64,000 nucleotides of DNA, taken from Dastarcus helophoroides. Its lineage: Eukaryota > Arthropoda > Insecta > Coleoptera > Bothrideridae. The notes under the pieces are model-generated. The model saw nothing but the letters and a program-made list of their open reading frames with translations, made no database searches and was not told the origin of the DNA. The position numbers and the translations under genes are program-made. Below, one piece after another: positions 3,820-60,239 of this stretch (position 1 is the first letter of the stretch; every line of letters starts with the position of its first letter). The DNA is taken from assembly GCA_028583605.1 (NCBI GenBank), contig CM053331.1, positions 9,594,857-9,658,856 of the forward strand. Direction: 5' to 3'.

Positions 3820-6300
3820 TTGAATTTTGAGAAAAATGAGACGCAAAGGAATCAATTTTCACACTTTGCTTAAATTTTGATATACTCTCGAATGTTTCAA
3901 AAAATTCCTAATAAATCTTTCTGATAAAATTTTTACCCCTTTGAATATAATTTAAGCTTAATTTCAAACCAAAGAAAAAAAATATCGAATATTTGAGAAA
4001 AAAAATAGTTTTTCTTTAGAGATAATTCCCTTTTAATTTTTACCCTTTTTAATAAAAGTCTGGCTTAATTTCGATAAAAAAAATAGGAAAATTTCCAGAA
4101 AAAGACAATGTTGAGTTTTGAGATAAAAGTCGACAATTAAGTTGAAATTTTGAAAAAAATGATGAATTTCAACAATCAGTTGAAATTTCGAGAAGTAGTT
4201 CAATTAAAACAATAATAAGATTGAAAACAAGACAACTTTACTTTTGAAGAAACGTATATTTAAAAAAAGACAACTGTTGATAAAAAAATGTTGAAATTCA
4301 AATAAAAGGCGATTTTTGAAGAAAAAGTCAAAATTTGCAGAAGCATAAAAGGTTAAATTTTGAACAAAAAAAAAAAAACAATCACTACTTCCGGAAAAAT
4401 TTTTGCTTTACAAAATTTTGACTTGACTTCGAAGAAAAAAAAAATGGTCAAACTTCGGGAAAAAGAAGAATTTCGAGAAAATGTGCAAAATTTTGAGAAA
4501 TATAAAATAAGGAAGTTTGACATAAAAGGAATCATTCTCAGAAAAAAAATACTAAAAAAACTCAAATGCAAAAGCTAACGCCCTCCTAATAGAGAGTCAA
4601 ATTTTGAGAAAAAATGACACATTTGAGAGAAGATTGAAATTTTGAAAAAAGGCAAATTTAAAAATAGTCAAATTTAGAAAAACAGCAAGCCTCAAAAAAA
4701 GATATATTTTCTCAGCAAAAGACAAATTTTGAGAACAAAAATAGGCACAAAATTTTGCTAAGGAAACGTATTTCAAGAAAAAAAACTGGAAATTTGCAGA
4801 CATATAAAAGACTAAATTAACAGAAATGTCCATTTGGGATCTAATTTTAAAAAAAGTCGTAATTTTGCTGGAATGGATTGGTCCTTGGTTATCTTCAAAA
4901 ATTGAAATACAAATTTTGTCCCCTGAAACCAAGAAAGTTTAAAAAACATAACAAGGATTGCTCTAATGCGTTTCGATAGCAAAGTTATCATCTTCAGTAT
5001 CTCTCTGAAGATGATACCTTGGCTACAAGGGTTTGTTTGGGTTTTTAATGATTCCGTAATTTTGAAAAAAAAGACAAACTTTGAAGCGAAAGTGAAATTT
5101 CTAGGAACAGAAAATGTTTGATTTTAAGATAAATTTTACGTTTCCAATAAAAACAAACCTTAATAAAAAAAAAGAATAGAAAGAGATAGCTCAGTATGTT
5201 CGAACTGAAGTCGATGAGTTAAGCTGTAAAAAAAAATCCGATTTTTTACTAAAAAGTCAAACTTTGCAACCAAATTTGAGTTTTGGGAATAAAGCAAAAA
5301 TTTGAAAAAGGAAAGGTGAATTTTGAAAAGAATATCTAAATCAATTTTAAAAGAATTTGAAGAAAAAATATTAAGTTTCCAGAAAAAGACTGAACTTTAA
5401 AAAATGTAAGTCCCGCAGTAAGTGAAATTTTGAGAAAAAAAGTCGAATTTTAAGAATAGGGTTCTACTTAAAACATGGACACATATTAAGTTAAAAGTCG
5501 AAGCTTTGATAAAATACGAATTTTGAGCTAAAAATCGAAATTTGCAGAAATATCGAAGCCTAAATTTAGAAAAAAAGTTTTAGTTTACCCTTTTTTTCCA
5601 ATAAAAATTAGATGTCATTTTAAAAAAAGGCAAAATTTTAAGAAAAGTAGATTAAAAGATTAAAATATTAATTTCTAGAAACGGAAAAATGTGAAATTTT
5701 GAGATGAAGTCTGTATCCGCAGAAAGAGTTAAATTTTTATAAAAGTAAAATAAAAAGGTACCTTAAAAACAATTTTATTTTTTCAGTAAAATGTCAACAG
5801 ACAAATTTTAGAAATAAATTATTGAAAAACCATTTTAGACAAACACCCAAAATTTAAAAAAGTAAATTTTTAAGACAAAGTTAAATCGAACAAGAAGTTC
5901 CACTACTACGGATAAAATCGTGGCTAATAAAAAGAATTAAGAAAAAAAGTCAAGTTTTTAATAAAAAAAAATGAATTTCGAAGAAAATGTTGTTACCAGA
6001 AATGTAAACTTTGTTAGAAACAATTTTAAGAAAAAAGAAAAGAAGAAACAAAAAGAAATGTTTAGAAATTCAAATTTAATAAAGTTGATTTTTAAAAATA
6101 GCACTAAATATTAAAACCTTGATTCAAGACAAATTTTGAAGCAAAAGTCAATCATAATTTCGAAAAAACGTTGAAATTTAGAAAAAAAATCTAAAAGAGA
6201 AGAGGTTTTGAAAAAAGTTGCAATTTTAAAAAAAGATCGACTCTTAAGAATAAAATCAACCTAAAAAAAATGCAATTGCAATTTTAAGAAAGGTTAATTT
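3820..6300 (-). repeat. Satellite-like block, purine orientation on + strand
   Basis: Dense degenerate units resembling AAAAGTCGAAATTTTGAGAA on the plus strand, the reverse complement of the form at 1-2085. A palindromic dispersed repeat (4868-5050) interrupts it. The open frames near 4353-4932 on both strands have the Lys/Phe-rich composition expected from the repeat and are not credible genes. Confidence 0.75.
4868..5050. repeat. Palindromic dispersed repeat, copy A
   Basis: Diverged member of a family seen six times in the window. It starts GGAATGGATTGGTCCTTGG, continues with CCCTGAAACCAAGAAAG and GCGTTTCGATAG, then turns back through CATCTTCAGTATCTCTCTGA into a decayed inverted copy. It lies wholly within the satellite block. 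The fold-back shape and lack of coding capacity suggest a MITE-like non-autonomous element, but no target-site duplication was identified. Confidence 0.7.
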
Positions 6301-7081
6301 TTTTAAATTCTAGATCAAAGCCCAGGGTGCGTCTTTTGTATACCACGTCCTTTAGTGATGATTTGCTTTATTTTCAGGAAATGCTAAAAAAACGAGTTTT
6401 TACTATAAAAATAATTATATCTCAAGATTTTTGTACCAAATCACACGTTAATTAGCTTTTTGGATAGAAAAGAACTTCCTCTGGACAATAGTTTTATTTG
6501 CTACATTTTTAAATTGGGAATAATTCCAAAATTCGTCATTGACTGTCAGTCTGTGTCATGTTTGTTATCGTGCTGTTGGTCGCAATTCTCAACCGATTTT
6601 TGCCATTCTTTTTTTCTCAGACTAGAACTTTATTGATTTTGAAAAGTATTGCCCAAATAGTTTAAATTTTATTTAAAAAAACCTAGTTTATTAGAAGAAC
6701 ATCAAACTTGGGAGTCTCAGTTCCTAATAGATTTTATTCACGGTGCAGGTCAAGTTGATTTTAAGCACAGTGTAAAAGGGAAAGACGTAACTTGCTTTCC
6801 TTTTGTAAAAAAAATTATTTAGTTTTAAACTATAATCATATTCAGTAATGTTAGATGATAGCTGAAACTCTAGAAACTGCACAGTATACCGTTAATAGAA
6901 AATACCGAAATTAAATATACTCCAAAATTGTCATGGAAATAGAAGCTGCACAAATTGCGCACTGACTTTTAAATCCTTGCAGTAAGTTCAGTAAACAAAA
7001 TACTTACTACCGAACAAAATATTTGTATTTACAACCAATGTGACTGGTCATATTAGAAAAGCAATATGATGCTGAATTTTG
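6301..7081. other. Intergenic stretch, nothing recognised
   Basis: Moderately AT-rich sequence between the satellite block and palindromic repeat copy B. No credible reading frame, inverted termini or RNA gene was seen. Confidence 0.45.
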
Positions 7082-7255
7082 ATGGAACGGACTGGTCCTT
7101 GGTTGTCTTCAAAAATTAAAATACAAATCTTGTCGCCTGAAACCAAGAAAGATTAAAAAACACAACAAAGGTTGCTCTAACGCGTTTCGATAGCCAAGCC
7201 TTGTTGTGTTTTTTAATCTTTCGTGGTTTCAGACGACAAGATTTGTATCTCAATT
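7082..7255. repeat. Palindromic dispersed repeat, copy B
   Basis: Starts ATGGAACGGACTGGTCC. The left half contains CTTGTCGCCTGAAACCAAG and AAAAAACACAACAAAGG; the right half returns as TTGTTGTGTTTTTTAATC and CGACAAGATTTGTATCTC. The halves form a long imperfect hairpin centred on GCGTTTCGATAGCCAAG near 7181-7198. This is the one copy lying clearly outside a satellite block. Confidence 0.8.
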
Positions 7256-29249: not shown

Positions 29250-29736
29250 CTTCAAATATTTAAATTTTTACCACACTAAATTATTGATGAAACGTCTATT
29301 CATGTTAAAATTTTTTTCTATATTTTTTAAAATTTTTATTTGTAAGAATTTCTTCCTAATTGTTCCCTTCCTATGTTATGCACTGCTGAGGAGCTCAAAC
29401 GAGAGCGAAATATCGATATCCAGTGCTACAAGCTTTTTATGTATTTTTAATATTTTCATAATTTATCAAAAAAGCAAAAAATTTTTTCATATCTAATTTT
29501 GGTCTACTACTTTTTATTTTTCCTATTCTATGTAAAATAAACTAACCTCTTATTTTGTCAACTGCCATGAGGTGACGTTTTAAATAAATTTAAATATCAC
29601 GTTGTCATATTTCAAAAACTGTTTTAGAATATTGTCAACAAACAATAAAAATTTAAATATTTTCAAACTGGGCCGAAAAAATGTTAAATAAAATTAATAA
29701 ACATTTCGGGGCAATAAGAGTTTACCATGAAGGATA
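29250..29736. repeat. Fold-back retroposon-like repeat, copy 2 (left arm truncated)
   Basis: Direct-orientation copy of 28463-29068. From TACCACACTAAATTATTGATG onward it follows copy 1 closely, through CAGTGCTACAAGC, CATGAGGTGACGTTTTAA and the right arm to GGGGCAATAAGAGTTTACC. Only a trace of the left arm (CAAATATTTAAATTTTT) remains, joined directly to the middle by a deletion. The tail reads CCATGAAGGATAAT. Confidence 0.72.
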
Positions 29737-33723: not shown

Positions 33724-33895
33724 CGACGCGTTTCGACAGCCAAGCTGTCATCTCCAGTTTCTCTCCGAAGATGATAGCTTGGCTGTCGAAACGCGTTAGA
33801 GCAACCTTTGTGGTGTTTTTTAATCTTTATTGGTTTCAGGGGACAAGTCCTGTATTTCAATTTTTGAAGATAACCAAGGACCAGTCCGTTCCACC
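33724..33895. repeat. Palindromic dispersed repeat, copy C
   Basis: Begins in the centre of the family palindrome: GACGCGTTTCGACAGCCAAG (33725-33744) is mirrored by CTTGGCTGTCGAAACGCGT (33779-33797). It continues through GTGTTTTTTAATC and GGTTTCAGGGGACAAG to ACCAAGGACCAGTCCGTTCC at the right end. The left outer arm is missing, so it is truncated. Confidence 0.8.
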
Positions 33896-33989
33896 AAAAA
33901 GAAGAGTAGTTTTTATTATAAATTTTAAACTCCTTTTGTAAGATTCCTGACTACGGCCCTGCCTACGTATTTCAACAGAACAAAATAGA

Positions 33990-46425: not shown

Positions 46426-48101
46426 TTAATTCTCGTCACTAGTTTTTGCTTTTTTTGTCACGCTTTGCTCATTTTCATCTGTAGATCGTTGATAAAAACT
46501 GTCTAAGGAGATTTGTTTCTTTCTCACTTTCAGGATATTGCGGGAATAAGTTAGGCAAGTTTCGTTGAACAACTCCGATGCACGACCAATTGCAACTTTT
46601 TCGGGGTGATTTTTATCCATGAACTCTACAACTTTTCCCACATTCCCAAGACCTCCTTTATATCTCTTGTAGAGATAACCTCCTCCATCTGTGGCTCCTC
46701 ATCAAAACTAATTTTTTGTTGAACCAGCGTATGCTGCTGCGAATGTAAATCGTGTAACTCCTCGGTTGTCAGCTCCTAAGAGTGTCCCTCGACGAGTTCG
46801 TTCACATCTCTCTCATCCACCTCCAGACCCATGGATTTTCCCAGAGAAACAATCTCCTCTACCACTCACACTTCGGATTCCAATCCCTCAAAGGCCCTTT
46901 TAGCTACCGTCTCAGGCCACAACTTCTTCCATGCAGAGGTTAAGGTTCTCCTCGTTGTAACAGCCAACCAGGCCTGATCAATAATTCTTAGGCATATCAC
47001 GATGTTAAAGTGGTCCTTCCAGAACTCTCGAAGGGTAAGGTTTGTATTTGCCGTCACCTCAAAGCAGCGCCGAAACATGTGCTTGGTGTACAACTTCTTA
47101 AAAATAGAAATCACCTGCTGATCCATAAACTGCAGGATAGGAGTGGTGTTGGGTGGTAGGTAGAGAACCTTTATAAATTTGAACTCTTCGAATCTTCGAG
47201 GTTTGGTGGGCAAGCAGGGGCATTGTCGAAGACGAGAAGGGCTTGCATGGGTAAGTTGTTTTCCTGTAGATATTTCTTAACAGAAGGGCCAGGTTTATCC
47301 ACGCCACAATGAATTTCCTGGTGACTCACGCCTTTGAATTTGCCCTCCACATAACTTGCAGTTTTTATTTAAGAATCTTATGTGACTTAAAAGCTCTGGG
47401 GTTTTTCAAATGGTGTACTAACAGAGGCTTGATTTTGCAGTCAGCACTCGCATTGGCGCAAAGTGCTAGAGTTAATCTATCCCTTATGGGTTTGCGATCT
47501 GGCATCGTCTTCTTCTCTGCCGTTATGTAAGTCCTATTCAGCATCCTTTTCCAGAAAAGCCCTGTCTCGTCACAGTTGAAGACTTGCTGAGGGATGTATC
47601 CTTTGACTTCTATCAGTTCGGAAGACGTTTTGATGTAAACCTCAGCTGCCTTCACATCCGAACTTGTTGTCTCACCATGCCTGACGATGGAGTGAATGCT
47701 GGCCCTTTTACTACAGTTGTCAAACCAGCCCCTACTGGCTTTAAGCGAGTTTTCTGATTCCTTGTTTGTGGAAGTGTGTGGGATTTGCTTCAGCAAATCA
47801 CCTGAATCGCTCGTGCCTTCTCATATATGATGCTTTTTATTAAGGTTCCTCCTTGAAGCTGCTTCTCTGTCACCCACATCATCAGTAGTTTCTCCATCTT
47901 TTCATGGAGAGAGGTCCGGAGCTTAGAAATTGTTGTAACGTCCTTAGCTGGCTTTATACCCTTTATCAACTCATTCTGCTTAAGCAGATGTGCCACACCC
48001 GCCTCGCCAAGTCAATTGCTCGCACACCTTGCTCATGTTTTTCTATGATTTCACGCTTTAATTCAATAGACATCATCTGTTTCTTCTTTCTTCGGATTCA
48101 T
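46426..48101 (-). pseudogene. TIGD1-like Tigger transposase, full length but frameshifted
   Basis: Tigger transposases belong to the pogo branch: an N-terminal CENP-B/psq-type DNA-binding region, then a DDE_1 catalytic domain. In minus-strand order: IELKREIIEKHEQGVRAIDL (HTH, about 48070), KGIKPAKDVTTISKLR and KMEKLLMMWVTEKQLQGG (CENP-B-type region), KASRGWFDNC and IHSIVRHGE, QQVFNCDETGLFWK with the first catalytic Asp (about 47570), LLVFDNAPA with the second (about 47230), LPPNTTPILQFMDQQVIS with the third (about 47130), NLTLREFWKDHFNI, and RNILKVRKKQISLDSFY before the stop at 46426. The whole order matches TIGD1-type proteins, and all three acidic residues are visible, but pieces lie in different frames with at least four breaks. 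No intact protein is possible. Confidence 0.88.
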
Positions 48102-48381: not shown

Positions 48382-48421
48382 CGTACGTATATTAGGGCAC
48401 TCGTATATCGAGGTACCACTG
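48382..48421 (-). repeat. Tigger 5' terminal inverted repeat
   Basis: Minus-strand CAGTGGTACCTCGATATACG at the element edge, then AGTGCCCTAATATACG and related TACGAG words repeated inward. TA lies immediately outside at 48422-48423, consistent with pogo-type insertion. Confidence 0.8.
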
Positions 48422-48446
48422 TATATTTAAGTATTTGTAGTACTGA

Positions 48447-49231
48447 CAAATGACCAATTAAATGATCTGTAATTAAACAGTTAAACGTGATTAAAATTGA
48501 AAATATGTACAACCGCAACCATAGACTAGTTTCGGCCTTCCTTGGCCTCATCAGCATGGTACGGTGGTTGTATTCACTTCCAACTTAAAGCCGTTAGTCA
48601 GTCGTATAAGTATCCAGGAGAGCAAACCTCCATTGGGTGACTTGTAACTGACTTATAACTGTTTATTCCGCAAACATTTTCGCTACATGCTAATTGAAGC
48701 ATTATTCTCTGCCGAGATAATAAGCCTTGTATATACGAATATATACAAGTTTATTACGATGCAATTGAAATCTAATTTCATTATAATCTAATGAAAACCA
48801 GACTGCAATTGCAAAGTTTACGTAGATGAGGCAAAGCTTGTATAACGGGTTGCATCGCAACATCCATAGATACAAACGTCCTCGGCGTTTCATCCAGTTT
48901 TGATAAATGACCAATTAAATGTTCTGTAATTAAACAGTTAAACGTGCTTAAAATTGAAAATATGTACAACCGCAACCATAGACTAATTCGGCCTTCCTTG
49001 TTTAATTACAAGGCATTTAATTGGTCATTTGTCAAAACTGGATGAAAGTAAGGTCACGCCGAGGACGTTTGTATCTATGGATGTTGCGATGCAACCCGTG
49101 ATACAAGCTTTGCCTCGTCTACGTGAACTTTGCAATTGCAGTCTGGTTTTCATTAGATTCTAATGAAATTAGATTTCAATTGCATCGTAATAAACTTGTA
49201 TATATTCGTATATACAAGGCTTATTATCTCT
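48447..49231 (-). mobile_element. Non-autonomous Penelope-like insertion with hammerhead, 16-bp TSD
   Basis: Perfect 16-bp direct repeats GTATTTGTAGTACTGA lie at 48431-48446 and 49232-49247. Inside are two copies of a unit containing GACCAATTAAATG and TAATTAAACAGTTAAACGTG (48450-48540 and 48905-49000), and a large inverted repeat with arms about 48711-48936 and 49005-49229, including CGTTTGTATCTATGGATG and CTTGTATATACG words. A full hammerhead ribozyme sits in the first unit (48508-48572, minus); the second is cut off within stem II. Variable long duplications, inverted rearrangement and hammerheads are the known Penelope-like pattern. No reverse transcriptase is present. Confidence 0.75.
48508..48572 (-). 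ncRNA. Hammerhead ribozyme, type I, very short palindromic stem III
   Basis: Minus strand: CTGATGA (plus-strand 48548-48554) is followed by stem II GGCC-AAGGAA-GGCC, then GAAA, then ACTAGTC with the GTC cleavage triplet (48526-48524). Stem I is formed by ACCATG just before CTGATGA and TATGGT just after GTC (6 pairs including one G-U), an internal loop, then TACAACC with GGTTGTA (7 pairs). All invariant core bases (CUGAUGA, GAAA, GUC) are present. Stem III is the self-complementary ACTAGT, too short for a stable monomer loop; such motifs in Penelope-like elements are thought to work best as dimers. Predicted cleavage lies between plus-strand positions 48524 and 48523. Confidence 0.8.
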
Positions 49232-49247
49232 GTATTTGTAGTACTGA

Positions 49248-54772: not shown

Positions 54773-55543
54773 AATACCAAAATTAGAAATAAAAAAACTA
54801 GAAATGTTTAGAAAGAAAAAGTCAATATTTTAAGCAAACAAAAAATTTAAGATGGGCTTTAAATTACAAAAAGTGTTGAGATTAAAAAAAATGTCCAGAA
54901 CAATTCTAAATTTGAGTTAAAATTTTAGAAATTAAAAATAGTAAACTCTAAGTTGAGACATTTAAAATAAATGAATGAATCAATGAATAAATAGATGACA
55001 TCTAAATGATAAAAAAACGATCAATTTTCAAAAACAAACTTATATTATTTATCTAAAAAAATACCGAAATTTGGATGAAACCAGATATATAAAAAATATA
55101 TTAAAGTGGAGATTCTAAAAAAAAAACTTTATATTTCTGAAAATGTTACAACTTTATGATAAAGACTATGCTAGAACCCTCAACAATTTTTAGCGCTTGG
55201 AGTCTCCTCGACTAGGAAAGGAATTCTAACTTTTTTCTCGAAATTACGACAATCTTTTTTTATACATATCATTACATTAATCTCAAATGTAAGATAGAGA
55301 GGTTCTTATCCATTTGTCTATTGAAACTGTGGTTATAAATAAATAGTTTCGACAAAATGTAGCCCAGGATGATTACATTCCAATTTGTCAATGGTCCAGC
55401 CTTGTTTTTGGACATATTTGGCCGCCAGTTGGGCAAAACTGCAAAGTGTGCTACGTCGAATTTTGAGCTGTCATCTGTGCTCGGCTTAACTTGCGATCTT
55501 CCTAAGTTCAGCAAGCTCTATTTCCAAAGTTTCTATATTTTTT
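54773..55543. other. AT-rich stretch with weak satellite trace, no gene
   Basis: Loose purine-orientation satellite words from about 54780 to 55190, then ordinary sequence. Overlapping opposite-strand frames at 55272-55608 match no family I recognise. Confidence 0.4.
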
Positions 55544-55716
55544 GGTGGAACGGACTGGTCCTTGGTTATCTTCGAAAACTGATATACAAATCTACAACAT
55601 ACTACTAAATATCTCTCTGAAGATGATAATTGGTTATCGAATTGCGTTAGGGCAACTGTTGTGTTTTTTAATCTTCTTTTTTAGGGGACAAGATTTGCAT
55701 ATTAATTTTTGAAGTT
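55544..55716. repeat. Palindromic dispersed repeat, copy D
   Basis: Begins GGTGGAACGGACTGGTCC, the best-preserved outer end of the family, then CTTGGTTATCTTCGAAAAC. It passes CTCTCTGAAGATGATAATTG and TTGTGTTTTTTAATCTT to GGGGACAAGATTTGCAT. The left inner arm carries a deletion relative to copy B. Confidence 0.75.
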
Positions 55717-55859: not shown

Positions 55860-56870
55860 ATTATTATCAGGATATTAAAATTTGAAGAAAACAATTGAAG
55901 TTTGAAAAAATCTATATTTAAAATAATACCTTTCTAAAAACCAAGTTTAAATTTTAAAAAATAAAGTTAGAAATTTTGCGGAATAGTCGATATTTTGCGA
56001 AAATATAGAGGTTTTGTAGACAGTTAAAATTTGAGAAAAAAATCGAAACTAAGAAAAAAGATGGAATTTTTTGAGAAAAGATGGAAATTTTGAAAAGAAA
56101 GTCCATATATCTATTTTGTTGAAAAATTAAAATTTTGGAAAATATGTCAAAGCTTCGAGGACAACCAGAAAGATTGGAAAAAATATCGAACTTTGGAAAC
56201 CAGAAATTTTAAGCAAGTTAGGTGTCGAGAAGAGTGCATATTTTGAGAAAAAAGTTGAAAACTTGGGAAAGTCCAAATTTCGAACTCCTGATTTCGAGAA
56301 AAAGGAATCAACCTTTTATAAAGACCGAAATATTTATTAAAAAGTCGACAATTTAAGAAAAAAATTGAAATTTTAGGAAGACTCAAAAATGGAAATCTAA
56401 ATTCCGGAAAAAACGTTGAAATGTAAAATGTGAGAAAAAGTGAAGATATTAGAGAAAAGAAGAAAATTAACAAATAATAAGGATATTAAACCAAAATAAA
56501 AATTTTTTGCGGTAAAAATCTGAATAAAAAGATTTGATAAAAAATGTAGAAAAAAATAAAAATGGAAATCTAATTTCAGAAAAAACGTCGAACTGTAAAA
56601 AAATCGAAAATGAGGGAAAAAGTCAGAATATTAGAGAAAAGAAGAAAATTAAAAATAATCAGGATATTAAACCAAAATAAAATGTTTTTGTGGAAAAAAT
56701 CTGAGTAAAATGATTGATAAGAAGTCTACAAAAAATAAAAATAGAAATCTAATTTCGGAAAAAAAACGTCGAACTGTAAAAAAATCAAAAATGTGAGAAA
56801 AAGTGCTTTTGAGGTAAAAAATTTAAATTTTACAAGAAACAGTCTATTTCTGGCAAAAGGAGCGACCTCC
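55860..56870 (-). repeat. Satellite-like block, purine orientation
   Basis: Units AAAAAGTCGAAATTT/TTTGAGAAAAAAG. A tandem duplication is visible: about 56390-56530 is repeated at about 56570-56710 and partly at 56740-56800, sharing CTAATTTC(A/G)GAAAAAACG, GTGAGAAAAAGT and ATTAAACCAAAATAAAA words. Confidence 0.75.
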
Positions 56871-56915: not shown

Positions 56916-57050
56916 AGTCTTGTCCCCTGAAACCAAAAAAGATTAAAAAACACAACAAAGGTTGCATTGTTGTATTTTTTAATCTTTCTTGGTTTCAAGT
57001 GACAAGATTTGTATTTCGTTTTTTGAAGATAAGGACCAGTCCGTTCCATC
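56916..57050. repeat. Palindromic dispersed repeat, copy E
   Basis: Short near-palindrome: GTCCCCTGAAACC...GATTAAAAAACACAACAAAGG is mirrored by TTGTTGTATTTTTTAATC...GGTTTCAAGTGACAAG. It ends ...AAGGACCAGTCCGTTCCATC. The GCGTTTCGA centre is missing, giving a tight hairpin. Confidence 0.8.
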
Positions 57051-58799
57051 AAAAAAAAATATGTTACTGTTATTTTTTTTTGTATTTATTCAATTATAGG
57101 ACAATCTTTATTGAAAACGAATCTACATTCTAATTGACAATCTGCATGAAAAATTAATTTGTTTAGCCGAAAGATAATACCCCGACTTACCCAAACAACC
57201 TCCAGTAAATTCCAAACAGAATATTAAAATTTACTTTAAAACAATATGCCCGAAACCCGACGGAACACGAGGCCAAAATAAAGAGGTTTTTTATATTCCA
57301 CACCATCCCCAGCCTGTTTCCCGCTGGGACGAGAGAGATGAGCCGATTTCCGCGGATAATGCAGGCGTACTATACAGGTACATAGTTAAGAGGGTCTCCG
57401 TTCCATAATTGTCTACTTAATATTCAAAAGCCCACAAAATCTCACATAACGGGATCTGTGTTTCAAGCAGGGCCGACTCTGCCAGGCTTTAATTGTTAAT
57501 AGAATATAAAGTCACTTCCCCCAACGCTTACTTTGTATTTTAAATTGCTTAACATATTTTAGCGTGTTGTTTTACTTGCATGATAATTCCGTTAAACTAG
57601 GTTTGGGGGCATAAGCAGTTTTGCATTCATGCCCCCTTTTTTGCAGTAGTTTCATATTTATTTTTGCTTATTAAAATCAGTTGGAGGCTCAACTGAAAGA
57701 TAAACTGTGTCAATCCCAACAGCTGGTTATTTTGCTTAAATTCATTTAGTTTTATGTAATACTAGCTACCTCCTCGAGTTTGCATGCGTAAGATCCAAAT
57801 ATTTCTAAATAAAATTATTTCTCATTTCATTAATACAATAATAAATTCAAACTTTCGTACTGCTCATTCTCGTACCCATCAGAATATTTGATGACGTGCA
57901 ATATTATACCAGCGATAAACATTGCGAATTGGTTTCGCTTTTATATGTTTTGCATTATATAACCTCAAATAAAATTGATAGCATAATTGAGTTCTTAAAA
58001 ATCAGGGCTTTGAATCGCTATTTTTTTCGTTCCAGTTTTCGGTTTTTGTTATATTGGTTTTCGTTTCGACAAAATTAACGGTTTTTTCCAGTTTTCGGTT
58101 CAGTTCCGTTCGATTTTTAAAAGTTTTTTGAATTAAAAATTGATTTTTGAATATAATTTAGAAAATGTGATGACTTTTTTTCTTTAATATTACGACACAT
58201 AACTACTTCGACCTTGCATTTAAGGAAAATAATTTCTATTTTTAAGTTTAAAAATTTCATGCTGAAGCTCTGAATTTTTAGTGCCGTCGATAAACTAAAT
58301 AACACTCTTTCTATAGAGACTAAATTTGTTAAATTTCATTAAAAATAACTGAAGTAAATGGCATTTAAAATTTTTTTTTCGACCACCACTTTATTTTTAG
58401 AGGTAGAACAAAAAGTGTAAAACAAAAGCAAGTCGAAATTACTCAAGGTTTACAATGCATATATTTTCAATTTACCTTAATTAGGCAAAATTTCTAGTAA
58501 ATCCTAATTTTCTATTTAGTCCTACGTCTTACGCCACCTAGCGGTCATTTTAGAACTTCAAAAATAGTTTATAGCAATTTTTCAGGGCCACTTGTCTTAT
58601 TGAAATATTTTTCCCAAAGCTTTAAGGCCGGGGTCTGGTAAATCGCTAAGTACGATTTGGCTCTCGGATTTAAATGCCCTGTTGAGGGCGGTTAAGAGAA
58701 CAGTATTTATATTTGTTTGTAAACGTGCAAGTGGAGATTTTGACCTGTTTCTTAAGTTAGTATTTTTTGTCGCGCTTTGATAAACAATTAAAACAGAAT
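57051..58799. other. Intergenic stretch, no gene recognised
   Basis: Ordinary sequence, with a GC-richer patch at 57290-57370. Frames near 57896 and 58117 are not recognisable. See the separate entry for the GTTTTCGGTT-rich segment. Confidence 0.4.
58018..58115. repeat. GTTTTCGGTT-rich short repeat
   Basis: Contains CCAGTTTTCGGTT twice, with related TGGTTTTCGTTTCG and CAGTTCCGTTCG words, unlike the surrounding sequence. TTCGGTT-rich segments are common in insect MITEs, but no ends or duplication were defined. Confidence 0.4.
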
Positions 58800-59885: not shown

Positions 59886-59888
59886 GAA

Positions 59889-60198
59889 AAATTGAAATAC
59901 ACACAAATTGTTCCCTGAAAGCAAAAAAGTTTAAAAAACACAACGCTTTTCAACAGCCAAGCTATCATCTTCAGTATCTCTCTGCAAATGACAGATTGGC
60001 TATCGAAATACGTTAGAGCAACCTTTGTTGTGTTTTTTTAAACTTTCTTGGTTTCAGTCAGAATCTTTCTGAAGGTGCTTCCTTGGCTGTCGAAACGCGT
60101 AAAAGCAACTTTTGTTGTGTTTTTTAATCTTTCTTGTTTTTAGGGGACAATTTTTGTATTTCAATTTTGAAGATAACCAAGGACCAGCGTGTTCCACC
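59889..60198. repeat. Palindromic dispersed repeat, copy F (with internal duplication)
   Basis: Contains two successive right halves: TTGTTGTGTTTTTTTAAAC...TGGTTTCAG near 60018-60057, and TTGTTGTGTTTTTTAATC...GGGGACAA near 60113-60150, each preceded by a TATCGAAATACG- or GTCGAAACGCG-type centre. It ends AACCAAGGACCAGCGTGTTCC. About 310 bases, longer than other copies because of this duplication. Confidence 0.78.
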
Positions 60199-60239
60199 AA
60201 CATTACTATATAGATCTCTAGAAAAGAGGAGACATAATT

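Follow-up and report, generated by a model that had tools for sequence, protein, structure and literature searches.

A complete hammerhead ribozyme motif on the minus strand at 48508-48572 of the analyzed stretch of Dastarcus helophoroides DNA (64,000 nt, here called the window) raises the question of what kind of element carries it and how this element moves. We propose that the hammerhead probably belongs to a non-coding, non-autonomous retroelement of the retrozyme type that is moved by the enzyme of a Penelope-like element (PLE). The motif, the repeated unit around it and its abundance, two preferred insertion ends, a rule by which these ends are mixed, flanking repeats, the sharing of haplotypes by parts of one insertion and the recurrence of this anatomy in PLEs can all be read directly from the genome. 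A preliminary description had reported the motif but missed its setting, a retrozyme-like element of high copy number whose insertions have a definite anatomy.

Read from 48572 to 48508, the minus-strand motif is UACAACC ACCGU ACCAUG CUGAUGA GGCC AAGGAA GGCC GAAA CUAG UC UAUGGU UGC GGUUGUA. The invariant core CUGANGA ... GAAA ... NUH and stems I and II are all present in type I order, as the preliminary description had claimed. Its two-part stem I was also found again when the pairs were checked, as an outer helix UACAACC/GGUUGUA of 7 bp (48572-48566/48514-48508), an internal loop and an inner helix ACCAUG/UAUGGU of 6 bp including one G-U (48560-48555/48523-48518). The CUGAUGA core (48554-48548) is followed by stem II, GGCC-AAGGAA-GGCC (48547-48544/48537-48534, pairs checked), by GAAA (48533-48530), by the short stem III palindrome ACUAGU that had been likened to those of PLEs and has the sequence stated (48530-48525), and by the GUC triplet (48526-48524); from the position of the motif, cleavage is predicted between 48524 and 48523. 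Two of the checks that had been suggested gave less uniform results. With covariance models, the best match was RF02275 (Hammerhead_HH9), which aligned end to end, so that a match does exist, yet stem III is shorter than in the model and the score of 25.5 bits is below the gathering threshold of 52; a scan of Rfam at gathering thresholds accordingly gave no match to the hammerhead region, and the E-values at laxer limits were 0.0019 on 2.3 kb and 0.052 on 64 kb. Folding of the minus strand spoke against the motif, the best monomer fold mispairing the hammerhead core (whole-fold z -2.5). We regard the hammerhead at 48508-48572 as confirmed and its earlier interpretation as supported, and self-cleavage as predicted.

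In a monomer, stem III is limited to an A-U and a C-G pair over a 2-nt loop, while two copies of the self-complementary ACUAGU are able to form a 6-bp stem, in line with the dimers that the preliminary description had considered. Modeled with a 30-nt linker, the dimeric form reached -40.8 kcal/mol, two monomers without stem III -39.3 kcal/mol and the best fold -46.7 kcal/mol, and these energies do not decide between dimer and monomer.

Other hammerheads were seen in passing. A second motif in the window, at 29371-29443 on the plus strand, scores 37.5 bits with HH9, above the motif at 48508 and below the gathering threshold; it has a CUGAGGA core, stem II GCUC/GAGC, GAAA, a palindromic stem III, an AUC triplet and, by eye, a stem I GCACUG/CAGUGC. 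Its fold energy is no better than that of shuffled sequences (z 0.14), and relatives occur in L013 and L070. A third type with a short stem III, CCGG or CCAG, was found at about 1543 in L014, 3171 in L035 and 1061 in L042. In these three types and in that of the PLE family PLE1 described below, stem III is short and mostly palindromic.

Within the window, the bare core pattern occurs at near chance frequency (3 found vs 1.86 expected), and the insertion around the hammerhead contains an inverted repeat of 175 nt. Both observations would suit a chance motif or a foldback DNA transposon in which the hammerhead is accidental. What raises the motif above chance is its repetition across the genome: in the 539-Mb assembly (50 contigs), the 25 nt that follow the cleavage site on its 3' side gave 2136 matches with at most two mismatches, and the reversed control gave none. 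Fixed terminal inverted repeats, moreover, are not what the copies have, as the arms have alternative ends and many copies consist of one arm, and the core is conserved in the sampled copies. An accidental hammerhead is thus exceedingly improbable.

The element family is young, non-coding and very common in the genome. BLAST against fetched loci defined a unit of 466 nt, numbered u1-u466 between cleavage sites. As a single insertion can hold several matches, the number 2136 counts matches and not insertions. A DNA search returned 1921 first-look candidates, of which 40 were scored and gave 42 matches at 95-100% identity. Units are arranged in tandem, up to trimers. Among the first 100 exact matches listed, all of them on one contig, same-strand neighbours were 465-470 nt apart in 11 of 12 cases and opposite-strand neighbours stood head to head in 12 of 12. 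Tandem units 466 nt apart are what a dimer in cis requires; the second hammerhead in the window is broken. The unit has a GC content of 0.369, its longest ATG-initiated open reading frame in a trimer encodes 80 aa, and its RNA is predicted to be highly paired (-158 kcal/mol, z -9.4).

Sequence variation among 43-50 sampled copies per position is lower in the hammerhead core, with a minor-base share of 0.5% (N7 excluded) vs 1.9% for the whole unit. N7 is the free position of the hammerhead core, at which any base is allowed. In this family (CUGA[U/C]GA) it is C in 34% of copies, and only two other positions of the unit reach a minor share of at least 20%. Older relatives (42 matches at 67-85% identity, with the query itself set aside) were also found. 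The young copies are too alike for covariation, and the older ones in L006, L012, L051 and L057 look degenerate by eye. Two old relatives, at G000:C2:9818789-9819038 and 9819251-9819501, lie 462 nt apart on one strand and are ~68% identical to the L012 query; judged from these two, unit size and tandem arrangement look old. A plasmid search gave no match, nor did one exact-pattern scan of viral contigs.

The copy in the window is a head-to-head insertion of 785 bp on the minus strand (48447-49231), as delimited by BLAST anatomy and repeats. It is flanked by 16-nt direct repeats that, from sequence and repeat comparison, we take as a target-site duplication, namely GTATTTGTAGTACTGA at 48431-48446, the last 3 nt of which may be the element's own (microhomology), and a second copy at 49232-49247. 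According to the BLAST anatomy, the minus-strand arm consists of a tail downstream of the cleavage site that ends at what we call site 1 (48447-48523, about u80) and of one unit between successive cleavage sites (48524-48980), which has 457 nt as compared with 466 nt in the usual copy. A second hammerhead follows on the same strand at 48981-49000, recognized from the sequence and a direct repeat as a broken 3' remnant that extends from the 3' half of stem II to GUC. The arm in opposite orientation (49001-49231, plus strand), recognized from inverted repeats and BLAST, covers u45-u276, with the BLAST match starting at 48999, and has its outer end at site 2 (about u276). In the vicinity, a Tigger-type transposon end, judged by eye, lies at about 48400-48421, ~10 nt from the retrozyme insertion, and DDE_1 fragments of a Tigger-like DNA transposon are present at 46866-47796 on the minus strand.

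The same two ends are preferred elsewhere in the genome. Among the 27 insertions with a single arm, the end falls at site 1 (u76-u86) in 18, at site 2 (u273-u282) in 6 and elsewhere in 3, and the 5' ends are scattered. Head-to-head insertions combine the two sites: 19 of 23 were clean, and all 19 were mixed, with site 1 (u71-u87) at one end and site 2 (u275-u287) at the other, while the same site was found at both ends in none of the 23. Site use in single-arm insertions would predict a mixed share of 37.5%, and the probability of 19 out of 19 by chance is ~8e-9. The unclean cases were L009 (u258 with site 1), L040 (site 2 with u261), L096 (u366 with site 2) and L091 (sequence incomplete). This rule was first drawn from 8 retrozyme and 13 PLE1 cases and then predicted for 12 fresh pairs, of which 10 were clean and 10 of 10 mixed. 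These pairs were picked for their head-to-head layout, so that 23 out of 50 is not a frequency; the head-to-head share was 11/39 in an earlier end count and 12/76 clusters in the genome-match list. Flanks shared at least 8 bp in 26 of 49 insertions, compared with 3.4% of 2352 mismatched flank pairs.

Several scoring decisions define these counts. L024 was scored as clean, its outer end being visible in L097, L093 (end u71) as site 1 at one nt outside the earlier range, and L037, split by the 60-nt gap rule, as two single arms. The duplicates L007, L015, L051, L053, L057, L081 and L082 were left out of the end, constraint, haplotype and flank counts, and L097 also out of the haplotype, flank and final end counts. 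The identity limit was 85% for the final end tally and 88% for the PLE1, constraint, haplotype and flank counts.

Truncation at the 5' end, flanking repeats and inverted 5' arms occur with LINEs, too. The element could hence be moved by a LINE in the manner of SINEs, with inverted arms produced by ordinary twin priming of the L1 type, and the scattered 5' ends would agree with this. L1 twin priming, however, leaves inverted arms whose outer end varies, whereas 19 of the 23 head-to-head cases observed here have two fixed outer ends. An A-rich 3' end is absent from the junctions inspected, and the PLEs of the same genome show the anatomy of the element. Mobilization by a LINE is therefore unlikely.

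A different origin of the head-to-head insertions, by self-priming of one cDNA instead of priming on both target strands, was proposed for rotifer Penelopes with inverted pLTRs and palindromes at the junction, as far as the accessible part of that report describes them (PMC3846280). In one of our insertions, L086, BLAST places the inner ends of both arms at u1, as self-priming would produce, and by eye its left arm extends slightly further. Across the 23 head-to-head insertions, though, the inner ends of opposite arms are at most 10 nt apart in only one, and in all 19 clean cases the two outer ends lie at separate fixed sites, which makes self-priming a quite improbable source of this anatomy. 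Priming at two sites is the reading that we pursue below. Sites 1 and 2 (about u80 and u278) are ~198 nt apart, and both fall into apical loops of the predicted circular fold, in which apical loops make up 8.2% of the unit; this position is suggestive only.

Candidate enzymes are present in the same genome. A search for GIY-YIG endonucleases returned 1070 candidates, of which 150 were scored, with 91 matches, and a PLE reverse-transcriptase query matched in all 150 scored of 1645, many of them in open reading frames of more than 500 aa; among the latter 150, one reverse-transcriptase group had nearly identical scores and several minus/plus neighbours. The terminal module of PLE1 contains a minimal hammerhead with stem III ACGCGU, as read by eye. 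Copies of PLE1 end mostly at q217-228 or q251-259 of the query (L081 880-1400; some duplicates included), and of 17 head-to-head PLE1 insertions 13 were clean and 13 of 13 mixed, the other 4 having one end outside both ranges. For a second family, PLE2, three mixed cases were read by hand (L078, L049 and L083/L084), with L072 left uncounted because its arms are not contiguous. Judged by these ends, the retrozyme and the two PLEs appear to share one insertion anatomy. Local folds around the PLE1 and PLE2 sites vary with the size of the folded segment.

The likeness does not extend to terminal sequence. Comparison of the unit with PLE1 (L081, L082) and PLE2 (L083, L084) gave short, chance-level matches only. 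A pattern combining the tail with a PLE-like ORF start had 11 matches (reversed control 1), and no PLE was among the six listed, which were the retrozyme itself once and otherwise junctions of retrozyme and host DNA. As one PLE1 locus, one PLE2 locus and the pattern search thus revealed no PLE with the terminal sequence of the element, we infer the helper enzyme from anatomy only. Three loci from the GIY-YIG search with retrozyme-like sequence beside PLE fragments were considered as links between the two and rejected, since they share no terminal module: an old copy ~500 nt from a PLE2 fragment (L051), PLE1 nested in an old retrozyme-like copy (L057) and a young copy beside a PLE2 fragment (L053).

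Some further observations concern the PLEs and other repeats. The 5' ends of PLE1 pile up at q113-118 (20 of 80 matches, duplicates included), ~40 nt upstream of the predicted cleavage site, which is perhaps the RNA 5' end or a stop of the reverse transcriptase. In L082 (G000:C7:33904500-33906500), the PLE copy gives way to homopolymer-rich sequence, as if a tandem PLE had been misassembled. In the window, PLE1-family fragments stand head to head at 4854-5024, 7075-7255, 33726-33898, 55541-55714, 56919-57053 and 59887-60200, and may explain several weak microRNA-like Rfam matches there. The window also contains a tandem repeat of 181 bp at 56425-56804 (2.1 copies, 87% matches).

The insertions also bear on the nature of the RNA template. 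Arms are longer than one unit in 31 of 73 cases. The 25 nt spanning the cleavage site had 2101 genome matches (reversed pattern 0), close to the 2136 matches of the adjoining sequence, which suggests that the copied RNAs were mostly uncleaved or religated. Rare variants, i.e., those in at most 3 of 52 insertions, with segments under 40 nt dropped, were shared by 14% between tandem units of one arm and by 18% between opposite arms, as compared with 0.5% between different insertions; L024 supplies many of the segment pairs in this count. Opposite arms share 8 of 8 listed variants in L092 and 6 of 7 in L091, and 3 of 24 in the window and 0 of 13 in L023, so that a common RNA source of both arms is evident in some insertions and not in others. 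A circle would be the simplest template, of which the arms longer than a unit and the shared haplotypes are indirect signs only.

The template could instead have been linear, a multimeric read-through transcript of a young tandem array, with no circle and no role of the hammerhead in movement. Tandem arrays do exist, the copies cross the cleavage site as noted above, and a PLE with a mutated hammerhead remains capable of insertion in vitro, according to the part of the study by Frangieh et al. considered here (PMC11167929). The depletion of variants from the core except at N7, and the haplotypes often shared by arms and units of one insertion as if from one small circle, weigh against a linear template; both are compatible with a homogeneous linear multimer too. 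We regard this alternative as possible but doubtful, and continue with the circle.

It is tempting to combine these observations into one pathway, for which we infer cleavage, circles, the enzyme and the assignment of strands to sites. Transcripts with tandem 466-nt units would be cut to unit length by their hammerheads, which probably work as dimers, given a stem III that is no more than a palindrome, and a host ligase would close the unit-length RNA into circles. A reverse transcriptase/endonuclease of the PLE type would then cut both target strands with a stagger of roughly 8-16 nt, and each cut strand could prime cDNA at a fixed internal loop, one at site 1 and the other at site 2. Copying would cross the cleavage site and may circle more than once. 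If both cDNAs are kept, they would be joined head to head, and if one is kept, a 5'-truncated insert would result. Whether PLE integration in general is such a two-site, two-strand reaction, in which a single RNA, circular or multimeric, is bound by a perhaps dimeric enzyme so that each cut strand faces a loop of its own and both strands prime, we consider an evenly balanced matter.

If so, a two-site reaction would account for two features of PLEs, their inverted arms and their optional tail, and animal hammerhead retrozymes would owe their movement to PLE enzymes. The agent that mobilizes animal retrozymes is still sought, and the inverted insertions of PLEs are so far only partly explained. 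A common family of near-identical copies, in which both RNA start sites are legible from the insertion ends, makes both questions testable by counting, and the element offers a small non-coding RNA as in vitro substrate for PLE enzymes.

Among known systems, the element is closest in kind to the animal non-LTR retrozymes, which, according to the consulted sections of Cervera and de la Pena 2020 (PMC7229834), consist of non-coding units in tandem, contain type I hammerheads and give rise to circles. The likeness comprises non-coding tandem units of a few hundred nt with one type I hammerhead each, low GC content, high copy number, highly paired RNA and flanking repeats of more than 4 bp; the element, too, has no LTR. 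Its unit of 466 nt is, however, slightly above the published 150-450 bp, its stem III is a bare palindrome unlike the stable helix III of most invertebrate retrozymes, and its two fixed ends and head-to-head inserts have no counterpart in the description given in those sections. By sequence, the element shares the tested retrozyme features except unit size, with a circle as the presumed intermediate. Amphibian retrozymes act as dimers (PMC7229834). The hammerhead repeats of axolotl and newt resemble the element in their tandem arrangement, with units of about 330-350 bp, and in a weak palindromic stem III, with dimers said to be active, and differ from it in a stem III closed by a tetraloop instead of a 2-nt loop, in the portions considered (PMC7229834, PMC6155905). 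Retrozyme repeats carry no motif that reveals an autonomous partner, and PLEs/Terminons were suggested from co-occurrence, as stated in the consulted part of a 2020 review (PMC7761336).

With minimal-hammerhead PLEs, the element shares a minimal stem III, two internal start sites, inverted terminal arms, a tail on one arm, flanking repeats and, presumably, cutting and extension of both target strands, as far as the accessible parts of two reports go (PMC11167929, PMC3846280). In the first, the protein of the Anolis PLE PAc was shown to cleave either strand of the target and to extend both, with two internal positions of the RNA serving as start sites (Frangieh et al. 2024, PMC11167929); no difference in start site between the strands was seen in vitro, which counts against our assignment of strands to sites. 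In the second, the pLTRs of Adineta vaga Penelopes occur in inverted orientation, one of the two optionally with a tail, and self-priming was favoured (PMC3846280). Unlike PLEs, the element has no ORF for a reverse transcriptase or GIY-YIG endonuclease, and as the unit is non-coding, it could only be a non-autonomous follower and not an autonomous PLE. Its two sites are about 198 nt apart, in contrast to a PLE tail of 30-40 bp (PMC11167929, PMC3846280), and it has no terminal sequence in common with PLE1 and PLE2 of the same genome. Within the parts of the PLE and retrozyme literature consulted, we did not find the mixed-end rule stated; PMC3846280 gives the optional tail on one inverted pLTR. 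While the hammerhead and the element class are already known kinds, the two-site, two-end rule common to the retrozyme and two PLE families may be new.
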